From NCBI GenBank assembly GCA_018825665.1, contig JAHJEG010000010.1, forward strand, positions 1 to 41,629: a DNA stretch of 41,629 bases, written 5' to 3'. The notes beneath the pieces are model-generated. The model saw only the letters and a program-made list of their open reading frames with translations. It had not been told where the DNA came from and searched no databases. Source of the stretch: a bacterium. Lineage in GTDB: Bacteria; Campylobacterota; Campylobacteria; Campylobacterales; Sulfurimonadaceae. The first letter of the stretch is position 1, and the number at the start of each line of letters is the position of its first letter. Below are positions 5,268 through 19,427 of the stretch, one piece after another. A program made the translations under genes and the position numbers.

Positions 5268-6806
5268 ATGACAAATGTTAGCATCATAGTTTTAGATTTC
5301 GGTTCTCAGTATACTCAGCTTATAGCTCGTCGTCTTCGCGAAGATAAAATTTATTGCGAAATTCTCCCTTACCATACATCTTTAGATGAGATAAAAGCCA
5401 AAAATCCCAAGGGAATTATCCTTAGCGGCGGACCCTCTTCAGTGTATAACAAAGACGCTTACGAAGTTGATCAGGGCGTTTACAGTATGGGAATCCCTGT
5501 TCTTGGTATCTGTTACGGTATGCAAAGAATTGCCGTAGATTTTGGCGGGAGCGTTATCCGCTCTGACCATCATGAATATGGCAAGGCTGAACTTAAAATT
5601 GAAAAAGATTCTCCGCTTTTGGCAGATTGTGACGATGACCGCATTGTGTGGATGAGTCACTCTGACAAAGTGGATGTGCTGCCCGAAGGTTTTATCCCAA
5701 TCGCTACCTCGGCAAACTCCCCTTATGCGGCTATTGCCAATGAAGAAAAACGTGTGTATGCTATGCAGTACCATCCGGAAGTTCAGCACTCAGAAGAGGG
5801 CTATCTGATGCTTCGCAACTTTGCAAAAAATATTTGTGGAGTAACTGAAAAATGGAAGATGGAACATTTTCTAAAAGAGCAGATTAAAATCATCCGTGAA
5901 AAAGTGGGAACAGGAAAAGTTCTTTGCGGTCTGAGCGGCGGAGTTGACAGTTCGGTTGTTGCCGCAATGCTTTATGAGGCAATCGGAGACCAGCTTATCC
6001 CTGTATTTGTAGATAACGGACTTTTAAGAAAAGGTGAAAGAGAGCAGGTTGAAGAGGTTTTCAAGATTAACCTGAAAACTCCTTTGGTGACTGTTGATGC
6101 CGTGGATAACTTTTTAGGAAAACTAGCAGGTGTGTCTGACCCTGAAGAAAAACGTAAGATTATCGGACACACTTTTATAGAAGAGTTTGAAAAAGAGGCT
6201 AAAAAACATGACGGAATCAAGTTCTTGGCTCAAGGTACGCTTTACCCTGATGTTATCGAATCAATAAGCGTAAACGGTCCTTCTGAAGTTATCAAATCTC
6301 ACCACAATGTCGGCGGTCTGCCTGACTGGATGGATTTTGAACTTATCGAGCCTTTACGCGAACTTTTTAAAGATGAAGTAAGAAAAATAGGTCTTGAGCT
6401 TGGTCTTCCGGAATCTATGATCAACCGTCATCCATTCCCTGGACCGGGTCTGGCTATTAGAATCATGGGCGATGTGAATGTCCCGGATTTGACTCTTTTA
6501 CGTGAAGCGGATGTTATCTTGCTTGATGAGTTAAAAGCGAGCGGATACTACGCTAAAACATGGCAGGCATTTGCAGTTTTACTGAATGTAAAATCGGTTG
6601 GCGTAATGGGTGATAACCGTACTTATGACAATACCGTATGTGTGAGAGTCGTTGAAGCAGTAGACGGAATGACGGCAACATTTGCGCATCTTCCACATGA
6701 CTTATTGGAAAGAATTTCAAGAAGAATTATCAATGAAGTAGACGGGATCAACCGTGTAGTATATGATATATCTTCAAAACCGCCTGCAACTATCGAGTGG
6801 GAATAA
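5268..6806 (+). CDS. guaA: GMP synthase (glutamine-hydrolysing)
   Basis: Converts XMP to GMP using ATP and glutamine, the last step of GMP synthesis. The 512-residue length is typical. The class-I glutamine amidotransferase domain (1-190) carries GGPSS, nucleophile Cys82 in GICYGMQ, and His169/Glu171 in YHPEV. The ATP-pyrophosphatase domain has the PP-loop SGGVDS at 223-228. The C-terminal dimerisation domain ends in the conserved 'PPATIEWE'. The gene stands apart from nhaD by 96 bases and probably has its own promoter. A near-miss copy of the dispersed 10-mer lies near its 3' end (6691-6700), and an exact inverted pair follows the stop. Confidence 0.97.
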
Positions 6807-6818
6807 CTTTATAAACTC

Positions 6819-6842
6819 CGGCATGTGGAGATCCACATGCCG
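6819..6842 (+). terminator. Hairpin formed by an inverted pair of the dispersed 10-mer, after guaA
   Basis: Arms CGGCATGTGGA (6819-6829) and TCCACATGCCG (6832-6842) around two bases. The stem starts 13 bases after the guaA stop and ends 6 bases before the hemD ribosome-binding site. It could act as a terminator or attenuator between the genes, as paired uptake sequences do in Neisseria and Haemophilus. No T-tract follows. Confidence 0.6.
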
Positions 6843-6858
6843 ACTGCCAGGAAAGATT

Positions 6859-7494
6859 ATGCCAAAACAGATCTATCTCTTTTCCATCTCCTCACACCCG
6901 CAAGCTATCAGTATAAACTCTTTGGATATAAAATTTTTAAAACCCAAGATTGATTTTTCACAGTATGACTATCTGATTATCACGTCCAAGCAGGCAAGCG
7001 AAGCTTTGAAACAATATGACTCTGAGGAATATTTCCACATGCCGGCATTGTGCGTCTCAAGTGCGAGTGCAGCGGCATATGAAGAGATAGGCGGAAAAAT
7101 ACTTGATATCGGCGGAGGATACGGAGATAACCTTGCGCAGAAGATATTCTCGTACGGGAGATCCAAAAGATGGCTCTATCTAAGAGCGGAGATTGTCGCA
7201 TCTGATTTTATTTCCACATGCCAGGAGCAGGGATGCCAAATTGAGGAAATAGTAGTTTACAAAAGCGAGTGCTCCAAAGAGATCCGGCATGTGGAAGTGG
7301 CGGAGGACTCAGTTTTGATTTTTACCTCCCCCTCAAGCGTCAAGTGTTTTTTAAAAGAGCACACAATCAGTCCACATGCCGAGATTATAGTAATCGGCAC
7401 CACTACCGCAGAGGCTCTTCCCAAAGGGATCAGATACACGATTTCAGAAATAACGACCATTGAAAACTGCATGGAGACGGCTTTATCCTTATGA
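6859..7494 (+). CDS. hemD: Uroporphyrinogen-III synthase
   Basis: Cyclises hydroxymethylbilane to uroporphyrinogen III in haem and sirohaem synthesis. The protein (211 residues) shows the loose HemD pattern: 'YDYLIITSKQASEAL' near the N-terminus, 'RAEIVASDF' mid-way, and 'VLIFTSPSSVKCF' with 'IVIGTTTAEAL' in the second half. The start is placed at ATG 6859, which has AGGAAAG at 6849-6855. A longer in-frame extension back into guaA (from 6763) would cross the hairpin and has no family support. The stop overlaps the next gene by 4 bases. Four exact copies of the dispersed 10-mer sit inside, in all three frames relative to the gene, an exceptional density. HemD is poorly conserved in general, so confidence is below that of its neighbours. 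Confidence 0.85.
   Translation: MPKQIYLFSISSHPQAISINSLDIKFLKPKIDFSQYDYLIITSKQASEALKQYDSEEYFHMPALCVSSASAAAYEEIGGKILDIGGGYGDNLAQKIFSYGRSKRWLYLRAEIVASDFISTCQEQGCQIEEIVVYKSECSKEIRHVEVAEDSVLIFTSPSSVKCFLKEHTISPHAEIIVIGTTTAEALPKGIRYTISEITTIENCMETALSL
7033..7380. repeat. Cluster of four dispersed 10-mer copies within hemD
   Basis: Exact copies at 7034-7043 (+), 7213-7222 (+), 7286-7295 (-) and 7371-7380 (+). They encode respectively Phe-His-Met-Pro, Ser-Thr-Cys, Arg-His-Val-Glu and Pro-His-Ala. The changing frame and strand show the constraint acts on DNA, not protein. Confidence 0.75.
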
Positions 7495-10202
7495 AAAAAG
7501 TATTAAAGACAATGCTCTTTATCCAGATTCTCTTTGCCTCTTTTTTGTCTTCAAACGAATTTATTCCAAAAATATTTCAACCGGGCAATACGGTTGTCCC
7601 CAATGACAAAGAGTACTATAAACATAATCAGAACAATACGCAGATACTCTATACCAAAGAGAATCTGCCCTTTGCAAAGCATACGGCGAATATAGAGAAT
7701 TCTCTCAATAGACAGTATGAGCTGTTCTTTAATTGGAAGCTCGATGAAACGCTTTATATAGGTTTGATGTCGGACTGCAACCAGATAGCAAACGGATTTT
7801 CAAGCCAGTGGCCAAATAACAGACAGATACATTATATCGGCGGTACTCAGCTTATAGATTATTTTTCATCGGCTTCCTGGCTGGATAATCTGCTGTATCA
7901 TGAAACTGCCCATAATTATCAGACAAATATAAAAGCAAGTCCCGTCTCAAGAACGCTTCATTCAATTTTTGGCAACGGCTCCGTGGTATTTCCCATACCG
8001 ATGAATGTTCCGAATGTGATGGAGAGTTCGTTTATGCTTGAGGGAAATGCGGTTTTAAACGAATCGTGGCACGGCAACGGAGGCAGATTGTACAGCGGCA
8101 GGTTTAAGGCCGAGACTATTTTACAGGCAAAAGCGGGAAAGATAACTGCCGCAGAGGTTTACAATGCGAAACTTGCTTTTCCTTATGGCGATATCGCCTA
8201 TATCCAGGGTGCGTTTTACAATTTGTATATGGCTGAGAAATACGGGATTGAGGCTTTAAACAGCTATTTTTTTATTCATTCGGAAGATTTTTTCTGGCCG
8301 CAGTTTACCAATGCAAGCATGCTCGCGGCCGTGGGAGTTGATTTTGAGAGTTCGCTTTTGGAGTTTTCCAAAGTGTACGCAAAGATGGGCGAGAGTTTTA
8401 AAGAAGCCCGCGGTGAAAAAATTACGGGTTCGCAGTTTTTTTATCCGCTCTCAAACGACAAGGATGAGATATTTTTTATAATAAATAAAAGCGGAGTCCA
8501 GGATCCGGAACTTATAGTCCTAAGCAAAAAGGACAAATCCCTCAAAAAAGTAACACAGAGCTGGCTGCCCGGCAAGGTGATAAAAAAAGATTCAGAATAT
8601 TACACACAGGCAAGTGCATATATCTCCCCGAGCAAAATAGTTCAGGGGCTTTTTTGCAAGCAGGGATTTATAAAAGATGACACAGCTTCCAAGATGGTTC
8701 AGGGATATCTCAGCAGCGGCGAAGCTGTTTATTTTGATGTGCCGAGTTCATTTTCAGAGGCGCAGTTATATGTAGGCGGGCAGTTTTACGCAAAGGTAAA
8801 TTCCTCGGTGATTATCGATGCCCGGGACAATCTGTATTATTTTGTGCAAAATAAAAAAAGAAGGACGCTGTACAGGAATAAAACTCCCCTCTATTCCTAT
8901 GAAGGTTTTTACGGGATACCCGCTGATGTGGATACTCTCGGCGGAATTTATTTTGTAGCAAATTCAGAGCTTGGAACCACTCTGTATAAATATGAAGATG
9001 CAAAGGTTTACCGCGTCAGCGAGGCGGACAATGTCATAGAAGCACGTCTGCTGGAAGGCAATGGGGTTTTTATAGCCGCTATTGGCGACAAAGAGTATTA
9101 TTATGTAAAAACCAAGCTGATTCACAGAGATGAAACCCCTTATGAGACGAAGCTGTTTTTTGAAGAAAAAGAGTATTACGCCAGAGATACTAGAGCAGAT
9201 ATCCTCCGCGCAGACTCTTTTGTTGATTTGTCGCAGCCCTATTCTTCGGTCTCAAATCTTCATTACAGCGGCACGGATCTTTTTCTTGCAAGCTCAAACA
9301 CAAATACATACGCAACACTCAATATGAACTTTTCAGATCCTCTCTCCCAAAATGCGGCTACCGCTTTTATAAGCAAAGACGCTTCACAGATTGGGTTTGG
9401 GGGATTGGAATATGCAAATTCTCAGTATCTTTTGCAGTACAGGCTGGCGGCATACGGCGTGTTTGATAATAATGACAGAGAAGATATACGCGATTTGGGG
9501 ATAATAGCGGGAGTGAATCTTCCCTATTACAGGGCGGGATACTATCTTGGAAATCTGGAGCTAAACTATTTTCAGGACTATGAGACGGATCTGAGAGAGC
9601 CGTTGAGTGCTGTTGTGAGTTTTTCAAGAAGAGAGCATTATGGGCTGAGTATGTATGAGAATTATTTAAACTTTCTCAAAATATACGCTTCAACGGACAA
9701 GGGTGACTTTATCTACGGGGGACAATATCGATACAAAAAGAGTTTTGAAGAGGAGATATATTTAGGGGCGGATTTTAAATATTCGGACCTAAGTGCAAGG
9801 GGAAGCAGACAAAACAGCGGTGTAAAGATAAGTAATATTGCATACCAGCAGGACATGGACCCTACTACAATCCACATGCCGAGCCTTGATGCAAGCTACT
9901 ATGTAAAAAGTGCAGGCTACGGGGAGATCAGTGTGGCCAAGGTTTTGAACTTTTCAAGCTACTGGTTTACTTTTCCTTTATCGCTTCAAAGAGAATCCCT
10001 GTATACGAAATACAGATATTACGAATTGCAGACATTGGGTGCCAAGAGACTGAATTTTAGTGAGATAACAGCAGGAATCACCCTCTCGAACGTATTTTTA
10101 AATAAATACAGCTTTCCTCTGAATCTCGAATATATCTACAATGATGCTGATTTTATACAGAATGAAAACAATGTCCGATTGACATTTGGGATTAGTTTTT
10201 AA
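7491..10202 (+). CDS. Outer-membrane beta-barrel protein with N-terminal metallopeptidase-like domain
   Basis: A 903-residue protein that I cannot assign to a named gene. A signal peptide (about 1-21) is followed by a domain with zinc-binding HETAH at 137-141. A candidate third ligand, E184, lies in 'MLEGNAV', the usual HExxH ... EG pattern of MA-clan (gluzincin) peptidases. The middle (about 340-590) is rich in short beta-strand repeats such as 'GIYFVANS' and 'LYYFVQN', suggesting a beta-propeller-like module. The last 300 residues alternate aromatic and polar residues and end in 'LTFGISF', a terminal phenylalanine typical of outer-membrane barrels. The start overlaps hemD by 4 bases. Inference: a surface- or periplasm-facing protease anchored by its own barrel. 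Catalysis, substrate and topology are not shown by the sequence. Confidence 0.75.
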   Translation: MKKVLKTMLFIQILFASFLSSNEFIPKIFQPGNTVVPNDKEYYKHNQNNTQILYTKENLPFAKHTANIENSLNRQYELFFNWKLDETLYIGLMSDCNQIANGFSSQWPNNRQIHYIGGTQLIDYFSSASWLDNLLYHETAHNYQTNIKASPVSRTLHSIFGNGSVVFPIPMNVPNVMESSFMLEGNAVLNESWHGNGGRLYSGRFKAETILQAKAGKITAAEVYNAKLAFPYGDIAYIQGAFYNLYMAEKYGIEALNSYFFIHSEDFFWPQFTNASMLAAVGVDFESSLLEFSKVYAKMGESFKEARGEKITGSQFFYPLSNDKDEIFFIINKSGVQDPELIVLSKKDKSLKKVTQSWLPGKVIKKDSEYYTQASAYISPSKIVQGLFCKQGFIKDDTASKMVQGYLSSGEAVYFDVPSSFSEAQLYVGGQFYAKVNSSVIIDARDNLYYFVQNKKRRTLYRNKTPLYSYEGFYGIPADVDTLGGIYFVANSELGTTLYKYEDAKVYRVSEADNVIEARLLEGNGVFIAAIGDKEYYYVKTKLIHRDETPYETKLFFEEKEYYARDTRADILRADSFVDLSQPYSSVSNLHYSGTDLFLASSNTNTYATLNMNFSDPLSQNAATAFISKDASQIGFGGLEYANSQYLLQYRLAAYGVFDNNDREDIRDLGIIAGVNLPYYRAGYYLGNLELNYFQDYETDLREPLSAVVSFSRREHYGLSMYENYLNFLKIYASTDKGDFIYGGQYRYKKSFEEEIYLGADFKYSDLSARGSRQNSGVKISNIAYQQDMDPTTIHMPSLDASYYVKSAGYGEISVAKVLNFSSYWFTFPLSLQRESLYTKYRYYELQTLGAKRLNFSEITAGITLSNVFLNKYSFPLNLEYIYNDADFIQNENNVRLTFGISF
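9871..9880 (+). repeat. Dispersed 10-mer TCCACATGCC, copy in the metallopeptidase/barrel gene
   Basis: Exact copy near the 3' end of the gene. It encodes Ile-His-Met-Pro in this frame. Confidence 0.6.
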
Positions 10203-11807: not shown

Positions 11808-12257
11808 ATGAATGAAGAGATAGAAGATTTACTCCACAGTGAAGATATGACTTTGGCAGATACTAAAAAAAGAGCGATGGCTTTTTTGATAGACGAGATG
11901 CTTTTATCTTTTTTACTTATTTTTGCCTTATGGGATTCTTTTGCCGGTGCGGCAACTATGGAAGAGATTATAAATCTGACGAACACCTTTGTTTTAGAAT
12001 ATATGGCTATGAAGATTATTTATCAAGCATTCTTTGTAATGCAGTACGGCGCAACAATCGGCAAGATAATGATGAAAATAAGAGTCATAGAGATCAGAAC
12101 GCTTCAGACACCCAATGTTATAAGCGCATTGAACCGGGCGATATTCAGGATAATCAGCGAAATGCTGTTTTATTTGGGATTCTTATGGGGGATGCTTGAT
12201 CCTGCACGCCAAACATGGCATGATAAAACAGCAAGAACTCTGGTTATAAATGCTTAA
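11808..12257 (+). CDS. RDD family membrane protein
   Basis: A 149-residue inner-membrane protein. The RDD signature appears as 'KKRAMAFLIDEMLLSF', with the conserved Arg and Asp in the first transmembrane helix. Two further hydrophobic segments (about 43-63 and 100-125) and the typical closing 'TWHDKTARTLVI' follow. RDD proteins are widespread and mostly uncharacterised; transport roles have been suggested for some. It sits three bases after purD and overlaps lptD by 8 bases, so it is co-expressed with lipopolysaccharide-export and RNA-turnover genes. That context does not define its substrate. Confidence 0.85.
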   Translation: MNEEIEDLLHSEDMTLADTKKRAMAFLIDEMLLSFLLIFALWDSFAGAATMEEIINLTNTFVLEYMAMKIIYQAFFVMQYGATIGKIMMKIRVIEIRTLQTPNVISALNRAIFRIISEMLFYLGFLWGMLDPARQTWHDKTARTLVINA

Positions 12258-14418
12258 ACTCCTTACGCTTTTCATTTTATTTGTTTCATTTTTAAATGCA
12301 TCGGATAAGGTGGAAATCTATGCAAGCTCCATGGAGTCAGAAGATAATACCGTAAAAGCCTACGGCGGAGTGACCGTAGTGTACAAGGACTATTTTTTAA
12401 GTGCAGAGGAAGCGGTATATGACAAAAACAGCAGCGATTTGGAGCTGTTTAAAAATATCCGTGCGACATACGGCAAAGAGTACAAACTTCTGGGCGATTA
12501 TGCCAAATTAAACCTCGCAAACAAAGAGAGGACTTTCAAACCTTTTTTTATGCTTGAAAAAACTTCAGAAGTATGGATGAGTGCGGATGAAGGGTATGCA
12601 AAGGACACGGATCTCAATATAGATTCTGGCGTAATGAGCGGCTGTAATCCAAACGATCCTCTTTGGAAAATGGAATTTACATCTTCAAACTACAATACAG
12701 ACACAAAGTGGCTTAATCTCTATAATGCCAGAATCTATATCTATGATATACCTGTTATCTATACCCCCTATTTCGGGTATTCACTCGACACCACAAGACG
12801 TACGGGACTTTTGATACCTGCCTTTGGAATATCCGATGCCGAGGGTTTTTACTATGAACAGCCGATTTATATTGCAGAGCAAAACTGGTGGGATCTGCAG
12901 CTAAAACCCCAGGTGAGGACAAATCGCGGATATGGAGGCTACTCTGAGTTCAGGTTTATAGACAGTGCAATCTCAAAAGGCACACTCACCGCCGGCTACT
13001 TCAAAGAAAAAGAAAGTTATTCCCTGGAAAATGAATTGGCGCATGATTCACACTACGGATTTAATTTTGAGTACGACAATAAAGATCTTTTAAATCAGTG
13101 GTTTGGGACGAGCCTTGAGGGGCAGTCAGGTTTATACATCGATATAAACAACATGAACGATGTTGATTATATCAATCTCTCAACAAACGACAGTACGCAA
13201 AATGCCACAGCAACCCAAATACTCTCAAGAGCCAACCTCTTTTACAATACTGATAAAGATTATTTCGGTGCATATTTCAAGCACTACAAAGATTTAACAA
13301 AACAAAGCAATGAAAACACCCTTCAAAAACTGCCTACATTTCAGTACCACAGCTATTTGGATACTTTTTTTAACAACCATCTTTTATACAACGTCGATAT
13401 TCAAAGCAACAATATTTATAGAGAAATAAATAAAAAAGCTATTCAGACAAACCTGGATATACCGGTGACTTTGCAAACTTCTGTTTTTGACGAGTATCTG
13501 AATCTTTCTTACAAGGCACAGCTTTTTGGACAGCATTCCAATTTTCACGGGGATGAAGAAATATACAGCGGAGATTACAGGAGCGGTATTTTTGCCAGAA
13601 ACTATCATGTGCTAAAAGCATCGACACAGCTTACAAAGGCCTATGAAGAGCTAACCCATGTTGTCGGCTTTGGTGCGAGATATACTTCCGAGGGCTCTGA
13701 ATACTCAAGCGGATATTATAAAGACTATAATGATTTTTGTGCGGATACCATAAACAAGAGTACGCCGCAATGTGAGTTTTATAATATTACTTCCGTCAAC
13801 GAGGGTTTGCAGCTTGATTTTACACAGTATATTTATGATGCTTCTGGAAATCAGAAAATCTATCACAGATTGGCACAAAATATTGGCTATAACAGTTCTG
13901 AAAGCGAGATAGGAGAGCTTGAAAACGAGCTTGACTATCAGATAAATCACAGCGTAAATTTTTACAATAATATACTCTATAATTATGACGAACACTCATT
14001 TTCTAAAACTTTCAACAGAATATCGTATATTGCCAATGGGTTTAATATTAGCTTTTCTCATCTTTATAAAGATACTTTTTTGCCTTCAAGCGACACCTAT
14101 TCGCCATTTACAAGCTATATTACATCAAGTGCAAGCTATACTTTCAATGAACATTACTCTTATGGGGCAAAATGGAATCATGATTTGCAGACAAGCTTAA
14201 AAAAGAGTTCAGAAATAGGGTTTATGTATAAAAAAAGATGTTGGGACTTCGGGCTTAGATATGTTGAGAATAACAGACCGGTTCTTACAAATAACAACTC
14301 ATCTTCGGTGTATGACAGATATTTGTATTTTAGTATAGTCCTAAAACCATTAATGAAGCAGGGCGGGGCGGCATCTGATTTTGCAGCCAGACTCCCTGAA
14401 ACTTTGCAAGGTAAATAA
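12250..14418 (+). CDS. lptD: LPS-assembly outer-membrane protein LptD
   Basis: Barrel component of the Lpt machine that inserts lipopolysaccharide into the outer leaflet of the outer membrane, with LptE. Residues 1-17 form a signal peptide. The periplasmic OstA/LptA-like jellyroll (about 18-140) starts 'DKVEIYASSMESEDNTVKA'. The LptD barrel region begins around 'YIYDIPVIYTPYFGYSLD' and 'RRTGLLIPAFG', a stretch well conserved in LptD. At 722 residues it fits the family in this phylum. Cysteines are few (C131, then C493, C503 and C666), so the disulfide pattern differs from E. coli. The gene overlaps RDD by 8 bases and is followed closely by the PRTase gene. Confidence 0.92.
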   Translation: MLKLLTLFILFVSFLNASDKVEIYASSMESEDNTVKAYGGVTVVYKDYFLSAEEAVYDKNSSDLELFKNIRATYGKEYKLLGDYAKLNLANKERTFKPFFMLEKTSEVWMSADEGYAKDTDLNIDSGVMSGCNPNDPLWKMEFTSSNYNTDTKWLNLYNARIYIYDIPVIYTPYFGYSLDTTRRTGLLIPAFGISDAEGFYYEQPIYIAEQNWWDLQLKPQVRTNRGYGGYSEFRFIDSAISKGTLTAGYFKEKESYSLENELAHDSHYGFNFEYDNKDLLNQWFGTSLEGQSGLYIDINNMNDVDYINLSTNDSTQNATATQILSRANLFYNTDKDYFGAYFKHYKDLTKQSNENTLQKLPTFQYHSYLDTFFNNHLLYNVDIQSNNIYREINKKAIQTNLDIPVTLQTSVFDEYLNLSYKAQLFGQHSNFHGDEEIYSGDYRSGIFARNYHVLKASTQLTKAYEELTHVVGFGARYTSEGSEYSSGYYKDYNDFCADTINKSTPQCEFYNITSVNEGLQLDFTQYIYDASGNQKIYHRLAQNIGYNSSESEIGELENELDYQINHSVNFYNNILYNYDEHSFSKTFNRISYIANGFNISFSHLYKDTFLPSSDTYSPFTSYITSSASYTFNEHYSYGAKWNHDLQTSLKKSSEIGFMYKKRCWDFGLRYVENNRPVLTNNNSSSVYDRYLYFSIVLKPLMKQGGAASDFAARLPETLQGK

Positions 14419-18307: not shown

Positions 18308-18757
18308 ATGACACAACAACAAATCAGTAAATTACTCGATGTCCCGGATAGAACCTTGCGAGATTGGAAAAAGAGCAGACAGCGGTTGTATACCTTGTTA
18401 GAGTCGTTAGACTACGATGAAGCGAAAGAGAAAATAAACGCGGTTGATGTTGATGATGTAGTGATATTTGACCCTAAAAGCTATTCTAATAATCTTTTTT
18501 GGCAGACAAATGAGGCTAGTGAGCAAAAAGTGTATGCAATCATTTCAAACTATCTCTCAACCATGAATGATTATGATATAAAAACACTGTGCAGTCAGTT
18601 TGGTAAAAATTTAGTAAAAAATGTACTAAAAGACAGGTATAAAAAAATGTATGCCCAAGGTTATATATCCACAAGTGGAATGGATATACCTCTAACTGGA
18701 ACATATGACCAAAGTCAAATGTATAAACAACTGCTAGGCGTGATTAATGACTGCTAA
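18308..18757 (+). CDS. Putative HTH antitoxin / autorepressor
   Basis: A 149-residue cytoplasmic protein that I do not recognise by name. Residues about 3-20 form a helix-turn-helix of the 'QQISKLLDVPDRTLRDWKK' type, as in MerR-like and transposase N-terminal HTHs. The remainder has no evident known domain and is unlike the longer winged-helix AbiEi antitoxins. ATG 18308 is preceded by GAGG at 18297-18300 with 7-base spacing. It overlaps the nucleotidyltransferase-like gene by 11 bases, the usual antitoxin-first arrangement. The palindrome in its promoter suggests autoregulation. Function is inferred from the partner gene and layout. Confidence 0.7.
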   Translation: MTQQQISKLLDVPDRTLRDWKKSRQRLYTLLESLDYDEAKEKINAVDVDDVVIFDPKSYSNNLFWQTNEASEQKVYAIISNYLSTMNDYDIKTLCSQFGKNLVKNVLKDRYKKMYAQGYISTSGMDIPLTGTYDQSQMYKQLLGVINDC

Positions 18758-19427
18758 TGTAAAACAAGTCCTAGACAAAATAAGTGATAACGAAATATTT
18801 GATGATGAGCTGTACTTCGTAGGAGGTACAGCTCTTAGCTTTTATTTAAACCATCGGATATCAGAAGATATTGATATAGTCTCTTTTAAAGCTTTACAAC
18901 ACCAACAAATCATTCCTAACATAACAATACTTGGAGCTGTCAAGCTACAAGATGAAAGTGTAACTGCTCTAAGAATGGCTGGATTGTTTCCTGATGAGTA
19001 TATGATTAAGTTTGTACTTGATAATGTAAAACTAGAATTTTTTCAAGCTAGTCGACCGATTCAAAAAGAGATATTGTCGTTGGCATCGTTTAGCAATCTT
19101 GAAAATTCAAAGTTAAAAATCCTTGATGTGAAATCAGTTGCAAAATTAAAAATAGTTGCATTAATAATGAGAAATAAATCACGAGATTTGTTCGATTTTG
19201 GAGCTATGCTAGAGCATAATGTACTTTCTATGGACGAGATAATAGATTTGTTTTCAAAGGTAGGTAGCAAACTTGTATCAGCAAATGATATTATCCATTT
19301 TATCAAATCAAAAAAAGTACCTAAGGATGATGAGGCAGTCTATCTTAGCGAAAAAGTTAGAATTCATTTAACGTTTGATGAAATAAAAAATCATGTGATA
19401 AAAATCTTGAAGAGTTCAGTTGCATAA
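18747..19427 (+). CDS. AbiEii/AbiGii-family nucleotidyltransferase, probable toxin
   Basis: A 226-residue protein of the AbiEii (DUF1814) nucleotidyltransferase-like family. The signature 'FVGGTALSFYLNHRISEDIDI' is present in two adjoining parts: GGTAL (26-30) and HRISEDIDI (36-44), with metal-binding Asp41 and Asp43. A later 'SVAKLKIVALIMRNKSRDLFDF' stretch (about 129-150) matches the family's Lys/Arg-rich helix and Asp. Family members are toxins of type IV-like or MenAT-like systems that can give phage abortive infection; MenT toxins block tRNA acceptor ends. Here it is coupled by an 11-base overlap to the HTH gene. Whether it is active against tRNA or another target cannot be seen. Confidence 0.85.
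   Translation: MTANVKQVLDKISDNEIFDDELYFVGGTALSFYLNHRISEDIDIVSFKALQHQQIIPNITILGAVKLQDESVTALRMAGLFPDEYMIKFVLDNVKLEFFQASRPIQKEILSLASFSNLENSKLKILDVKSVAKLKIVALIMRNKSRDLFDFGAMLEHNVLSMDEIIDLFSKVGSKLVSANDIIHFIKSKKVPKDDEAVYLSEKVRIHLTFDEIKNHVIKILKSSVA

Follow-up and report, generated by a model that had tools for sequence, protein, structure and literature searches.

Proteins in which a soluble, TolB-like propeller is followed, in a single chain, by a C-terminal outer-membrane barrel have been described by Heinz and Lithgow as the WD40-Omp85 subfamily (PMC4104836). In PlpD, a patatin-like Omp85 protein, it is an enzyme domain that lies N-terminal to the C-terminal barrel; this domain was once thought to be exported but is periplasmic, and a periplasm-facing topology has been proposed for the protein (PMC11116518). 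A third arrangement is that of AaaA (PA0328), an M28 aminopeptidase autotransporter, in which a metallopeptidase is covalently joined to a barrel of its own that anchors it in the outer membrane (PMC3426542).

The window -- the whole 41,629-nucleotide stretch of Campylobacterales DNA analysed here, from contig JAHJEG010000010.1 of assembly GCA_018825665.1 -- encodes a protein that can be compared with each of these. One chain appears to hold a zinc-protease-like domain, a propeller and an outer-membrane barrel, in that order. The succession of propeller and barrel is that of the WD40-Omp85 proteins, but an HExxH domain stands before the propeller, and PF01103 finds no match in the barrel. Where PlpD has a patatin-type lipase and POTRA, the window protein has the HExxH domain and the propeller; a separate patatin-barrel protein is encoded in the same genome. 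AaaA differs in its M28 two-zinc fold, its surface location and its autotransporter barrel, and no propeller has been reported for it (PMC3426542). The exact trio is reported for none of the three, and a literature search did not find an HExxH domain, a propeller and a barrel together in one protein. The lack of any precedent claimed in the first-pass annotation was too strong a statement, though, because propeller-barrel proteins (PMC4104836), enzyme-barrel proteins (PMC11116518) and a barrel-tethered metallopeptidase (PMC3426542) are all known.

Architecture of the encoded protein

The gene, read earlier as encoding a single polypeptide, is present as one frame of 903 codons with its stop codon at 10200-10202, and the order then given for its parts (peptidase-like domain, strand-rich middle, barrel) has proved largely right (Table 1). 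The homologues have a comparable Lys/hydrophobic N-terminus in the alignment. Searches of Pfam, NCBIfam and the PDB sequences, with the single sequence and with a profile, gave nothing significant for the protein; weak matches to CusS, Dda and Peptidase_M60 (0.03, in one member) have been taken as chance.

Table 1. Positions in the window of the gene, its upstream neighbour and the parts of the encoded protein.
Feature	Position	Strand	Basis
hemD, upstream neighbour, with a 4-base ATGA overlap	6763..7494	+	HEM4, E 9.7e-24
Whole gene, 903-aa exported three-part protein	7491..10202	+	ORF; full length kept in homologues
Sec signal peptide, residues ~1-21, MKKVLKTMLFIQILFASFLSS, without lipobox Cys	7491..7553	+	sequence reading
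Peptidase-like domain, residues ~31-310	7581..8420	+	alignments; highest conservation in the protein
HETAH (HExxH), residues 137-141	7899..7913	+	H137, E138, H141 invariant, 82/82
Glu184, candidate third zinc ligand, in MLEGNAV	8040..8042	+	invariant, 82/82
Glu191, with GGRLYSG after it (R199 also invariant); candidate residues of the active site	8061..8063	+	invariant, 82/82
TolB/S9-type beta-propeller, residues ~310-546, probably six blades	8418..9128	+	Foldseek, VIA, 38-residue repeat
Outer-membrane barrel (predicted), residues ~584-903, ~14-16 strands, terminal Phe	9240..10199	+	strand pattern, covariation

Homologues have been drawn from the family to which the window belongs, from the order and from two further, related families, and aligned in successive sets of 29, then 51 more diverse, 63 and 82 sequences; H137, E138, H141 and E184 are invariant throughout. 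There are no exceptions at these positions, or at Q144, E191 and R199, among the 82 distinct homologues, in which Y42, W130, P174-N175, G185, G198, Y237, G240 and P270 of the peptidase-like domain are also fully conserved; the best-conserved stretch of the whole protein runs from about residue 100 to 250. Because it is kept in all 82, the combination of HExxH and Glu has been selected and is no chance match. HETAH and the Glu of MLEGNAV both lie where they were first placed, and conservation of H137, H141 and E184 in homologues, which had been put forward as a check, is borne out. Both of the low-confidence models predict a helix that contains HETAH, and Glu184 lies in a second predicted helix.

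An HExxH with a downstream Glu is the pattern of active gluzincin peptidases. The window protein resembles this group, Peptidase_MA_2 (PF13485) included, in that its HExxH lies within a predicted helix and is followed, 43 residues beyond H141, by a Glu that never varies (Glu184), but it differs in matching neither PF13485 nor any other peptidase family; PF13485 was unmatched in the members searched (29 and 17), in the protein's own genome and in 249 genomes of the phylum. On the strength of its conserved motif, the domain is most likely a metallopeptidase. AlphaFold with a four-row alignment (about three independent sequences) gave no confident peptidase-domain fold for residues 31-312 (pLDDT 37); the whole protein, modelled with an alignment of the same depth, reached pLDDT 33, with no confident barrel.

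The sole usable part of that whole-protein model is the propeller, in which residues ~420-520 reach pLDDT 60-85. Foldseek of the model against the PDB places TolB propellers at the top (E 1.5e-5, probability 1.00, ~268 columns) and those of S9 peptidases after them, while a second aligner, VIA, gives Z scores of 10-12.5 over residues 310-546 with S9-peptidase and TolB propellers (about 10 for TolB). Independently of the model, a profile self-comparison detects a 38-residue repeat (0.29, where the null reaches a maximum of -0.04+-0.08) that pairs residues 440-469 with 478-507. Residues ~310-546 form a TolB/S9-type propeller, the fold search and the repeat agreeing on the strand-rich middle for which a propeller had been expected. 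The likeness is one of fold: identity is ~10-16%, and neither TolB nor PD40 was matched by this domain in Pfam searches of family members. The window propeller also differs from those of TolB and the S9 peptidases in sharing its chain with a barrel and a metallopeptidase-like domain; TolB is a soluble Tol-Pal protein, whereas the window propeller is a single domain within a chain of 903 residues.

In the last 320 residues the family-average hydrophobicity alternates with a power of 91 at period 2.0, against 39 at period 3.6, an alternation that is absent from the peptidase and propeller domains. Strand calling finds thirteen amphipathic strands in the C-terminal third, against 6.8+-1.9 in shuffles, an excess similar to that of BamA barrels under the same treatment (2.9 SD above shuffles); in the peptidase and propeller domains the count is at chance. 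Covariation, computed from 82 sequences (71 effective), points the same way, with antiparallel hairpins making up 7 of the top 15 mean-field couplings in the C-terminal third against a background of 11% (P ~7e-4, an approximate value, since the background used as the null counts ladders that overlap); among the 15 strongest couplings of the peptidase domain there is a single one (P 0.88). The formal hairpin test covers this 82-sequence version; in the 63-sequence covariation antiparallel ladders were not clearly in excess over parallel ones. The last residue is F or Y in 48 of the 56 full-length homologues, the window protein ending in ...VRLTFGISF. Read by hand, the strand and coupling data yield as many as 16 strands, both termini, N and C, sharing the periplasmic side. 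By this indirect evidence the last 320 residues resemble an outer-membrane barrel with some 14-16 strands, and the alternation, the hairpin covariation and the F/Y ends fit the barrel-like C-terminus ending in Phe that had been noticed at the outset.

Distribution and genomic context

In the searches made, the family is found only in the order Campylobacterales. Its distribution is patchy in the window's taxonomic family, with matches in 60 of 228 genomes, and near-universal in two other Campylobacterales families (18/22 and 13/15 genomes); 43 of the 299 genomes in an order-wide sample were matched, and the matches from a phylum sample came solely from Campylobacterales. The relatives that carry a name are MAGs with the labels Sulfurimonas, Campylobacterales and Helicobacteraceae. 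A single-sequence search of one genome collection that covers other phyla returned close relatives only; plasmid and phage collections, likewise searched with a single sequence, gave no relative, and neither did the viral one. Two adjacent full-length copies are seen in one genus (L195 and L196; G055:C65, G049:C72), another genome of which, G043, holds several pieces of the gene; together these suggest a lineage-specific expansion. Broken or remnant copies, with in-frame stops or as short pieces, occur at G249:C1:1109657-1112314 (L054), G061:C81, G629:C57 and G119:C8, and indicate that the gene is under loss in some lineages.

The gene lies after hemD in seven genomes of the genus, the window's included, and in the window purD is found downstream of it. 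In eight other genomes of the genus guaA, hemD and purD follow one another and the site is without a copy; two of these eight have the gene elsewhere. Members of another family have it overlapping or abutting a Na/Ca exchanger gene, with ybeY before, in three genera, and in a third family it overlaps an HhH-GPD DNA-repair gene. Overlap or near contact with unrelated upstream genes is recurrent among the loci (L084:5049-8653, L082:557-4119, L086:5350-8605). The gene tends to be the tail of unrelated transcription units and, since its neighbours vary by lineage, works without a dedicated operon partner. The coupling to hemD to which attention had been drawn is real as an ATGA overlap but carries no meaning as a link: it is seen in one lineage only, eight relatives have the site empty, and no partner gene is common to the families, so hemD is uninformative on function and a functional connection with it has been rejected.

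Some further features of the window and its relatives may be recorded here. At 12250-14418 the window encodes a 722-aa LptD (NCBIfam LptD, E 6.4e-29; unmatched in Pfam at E up to 1), strongly diverged and sitting in the conserved order purD-RDD-lptD. A two-gene AbiE-type pair lies at 18308-19427, its second member a 226-aa AbiEii-like nucleotidyltransferase (PF08843, E 2.7e-17; PADLOC AbiEii). The ORF that precedes and overlaps it (149 aa) matches no family and is possibly the antitoxin. Genomes of the window's family also encode short Omp85 proteins (PF01103) of ~430-450 aa without an N-terminal domain (L118-L120 and others), several per genome in some species.

Membrane side and alternative readings

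The reading that we favour, with a probability of roughly 0.55, is that of a zinc metallopeptidase anchored in the outer membrane and turned toward the periplasm. Where a C-terminal barrel begins with a strand that is joined to a soluble N-terminal part, that part normally lies in the periplasm. We infer the side from the position of the soluble part ahead of the barrel and from PlpD, the closest tested analogue, which keeps its enzyme domain in the periplasm. Zinc, proteolysis, a gating role and the substrates are likewise inferred, as follows. The protein would be exported by Sec and its C-terminal barrel inserted in the outer membrane, leaving the propeller and the N-terminal HExxH...E domain on the periplasmic side, by analogy with PlpD. 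Zinc would be bound by H137, H141 and E184, and water activated by E138. The propeller, standing between the active site and the membrane, may serve as a docking or gating module, as in TolB and the S9 peptidases. The protein would act on polypeptides on the inner side of the outer membrane, for example envelope proteins that are being matured or have misassembled, or on peptides that have come in through porins.

A surface role had been suggested initially. For the protein to be a surface protease, the barrel or some other translocator would have to export the peptidase domain and propeller, which would remain tethered and process nutrients in the manner of AaaA; AaaA itself is a precedent for a surface-tethered metallopeptidase with its own barrel (PMC3426542), and such a role would suit an environmental organism. 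The Pfam autotransporter beta-domain, however, is unmatched in every member at E up to 10, the soluble part consists of a helical domain and a propeller in place of a beta-helix passenger, and ~14-16 strands exceed the 12 of classical autotransporters. PlpD, moreover, was formerly considered an exporter of its enzyme domain and in fact retains it in the periplasm (PMC11116518). We regard a surface protease as unlikely and the surface role as unsupported, a periplasm-facing enzyme being likelier. Very improbable, in our estimate, is that the domain is no protease, the metal at HExxH serving another reaction or a structural purpose in a protein that is mainly a channel or adhesin. The peptidase families are unmatched, it is true, and the invariant polar residues Q144, E191 and R199 could mean other chemistry; but the HExxH and its downstream Glu are fixed as in active gluzincin peptidases, and a purely structural site would have no need of E138.

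The barrel may be a divergent Omp85. One possibility built on this is a diverged WD40-Omp85 protein, with an Omp85-type barrel for assembly or translocation, a BamB-like docking propeller and the peptidase as a quality-control arm of OMP assembly. The propeller-barrel order is the same, TolB is the closest propeller there too (PMC4104836), the strand count is near 16, and a long variable segment at ~764-813, in which RG[VI]K is conserved among close relatives, could correspond to loop 6 of Omp85. On the other hand, PF01103 is unmatched in the 29 and 17 members searched, and the protein is missing from the Omp85 matches of its own genome, among which are BamA-type, shorter POTRA-type and patatin-type proteins; no sign of POTRA is seen in it. 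Aligned by hhalign with BamA barrels of Campylobacterota, the barrel shows weak similarity (E 0.036, 47 columns aligned), and E is 0.15-0.47 for other barrels; none of the matches, to BamA, other Omp85 proteins, PlpD or LptD, was convincing. We consider this WD40-Omp85 reading quite unlikely. Some propeller-Omp85 proteins of other phyla start with a Peptidase-MA-like domain; the present family may be a divergent branch of them. An unnamed class of outer-membrane protease that arose within Campylobacterales and is near-universal in two of their families, self-contained in one chain that combines a gluzincin domain with a gating propeller and a barrel outside Omp85, is put forward tentatively and must be called doubtful.

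If the protein is indeed a periplasm-facing metallopeptidase anchored by its own barrel, it would add a further case to the little-studied enzyme-barrel fusions, whose membrane topology is rarely measured, and, the gene being solitary, one that can be deleted and assayed. It would also represent an envelope protease family unrecognised by Pfam, NCBIfam and the PDB, and kept in several families of the Campylobacterales.
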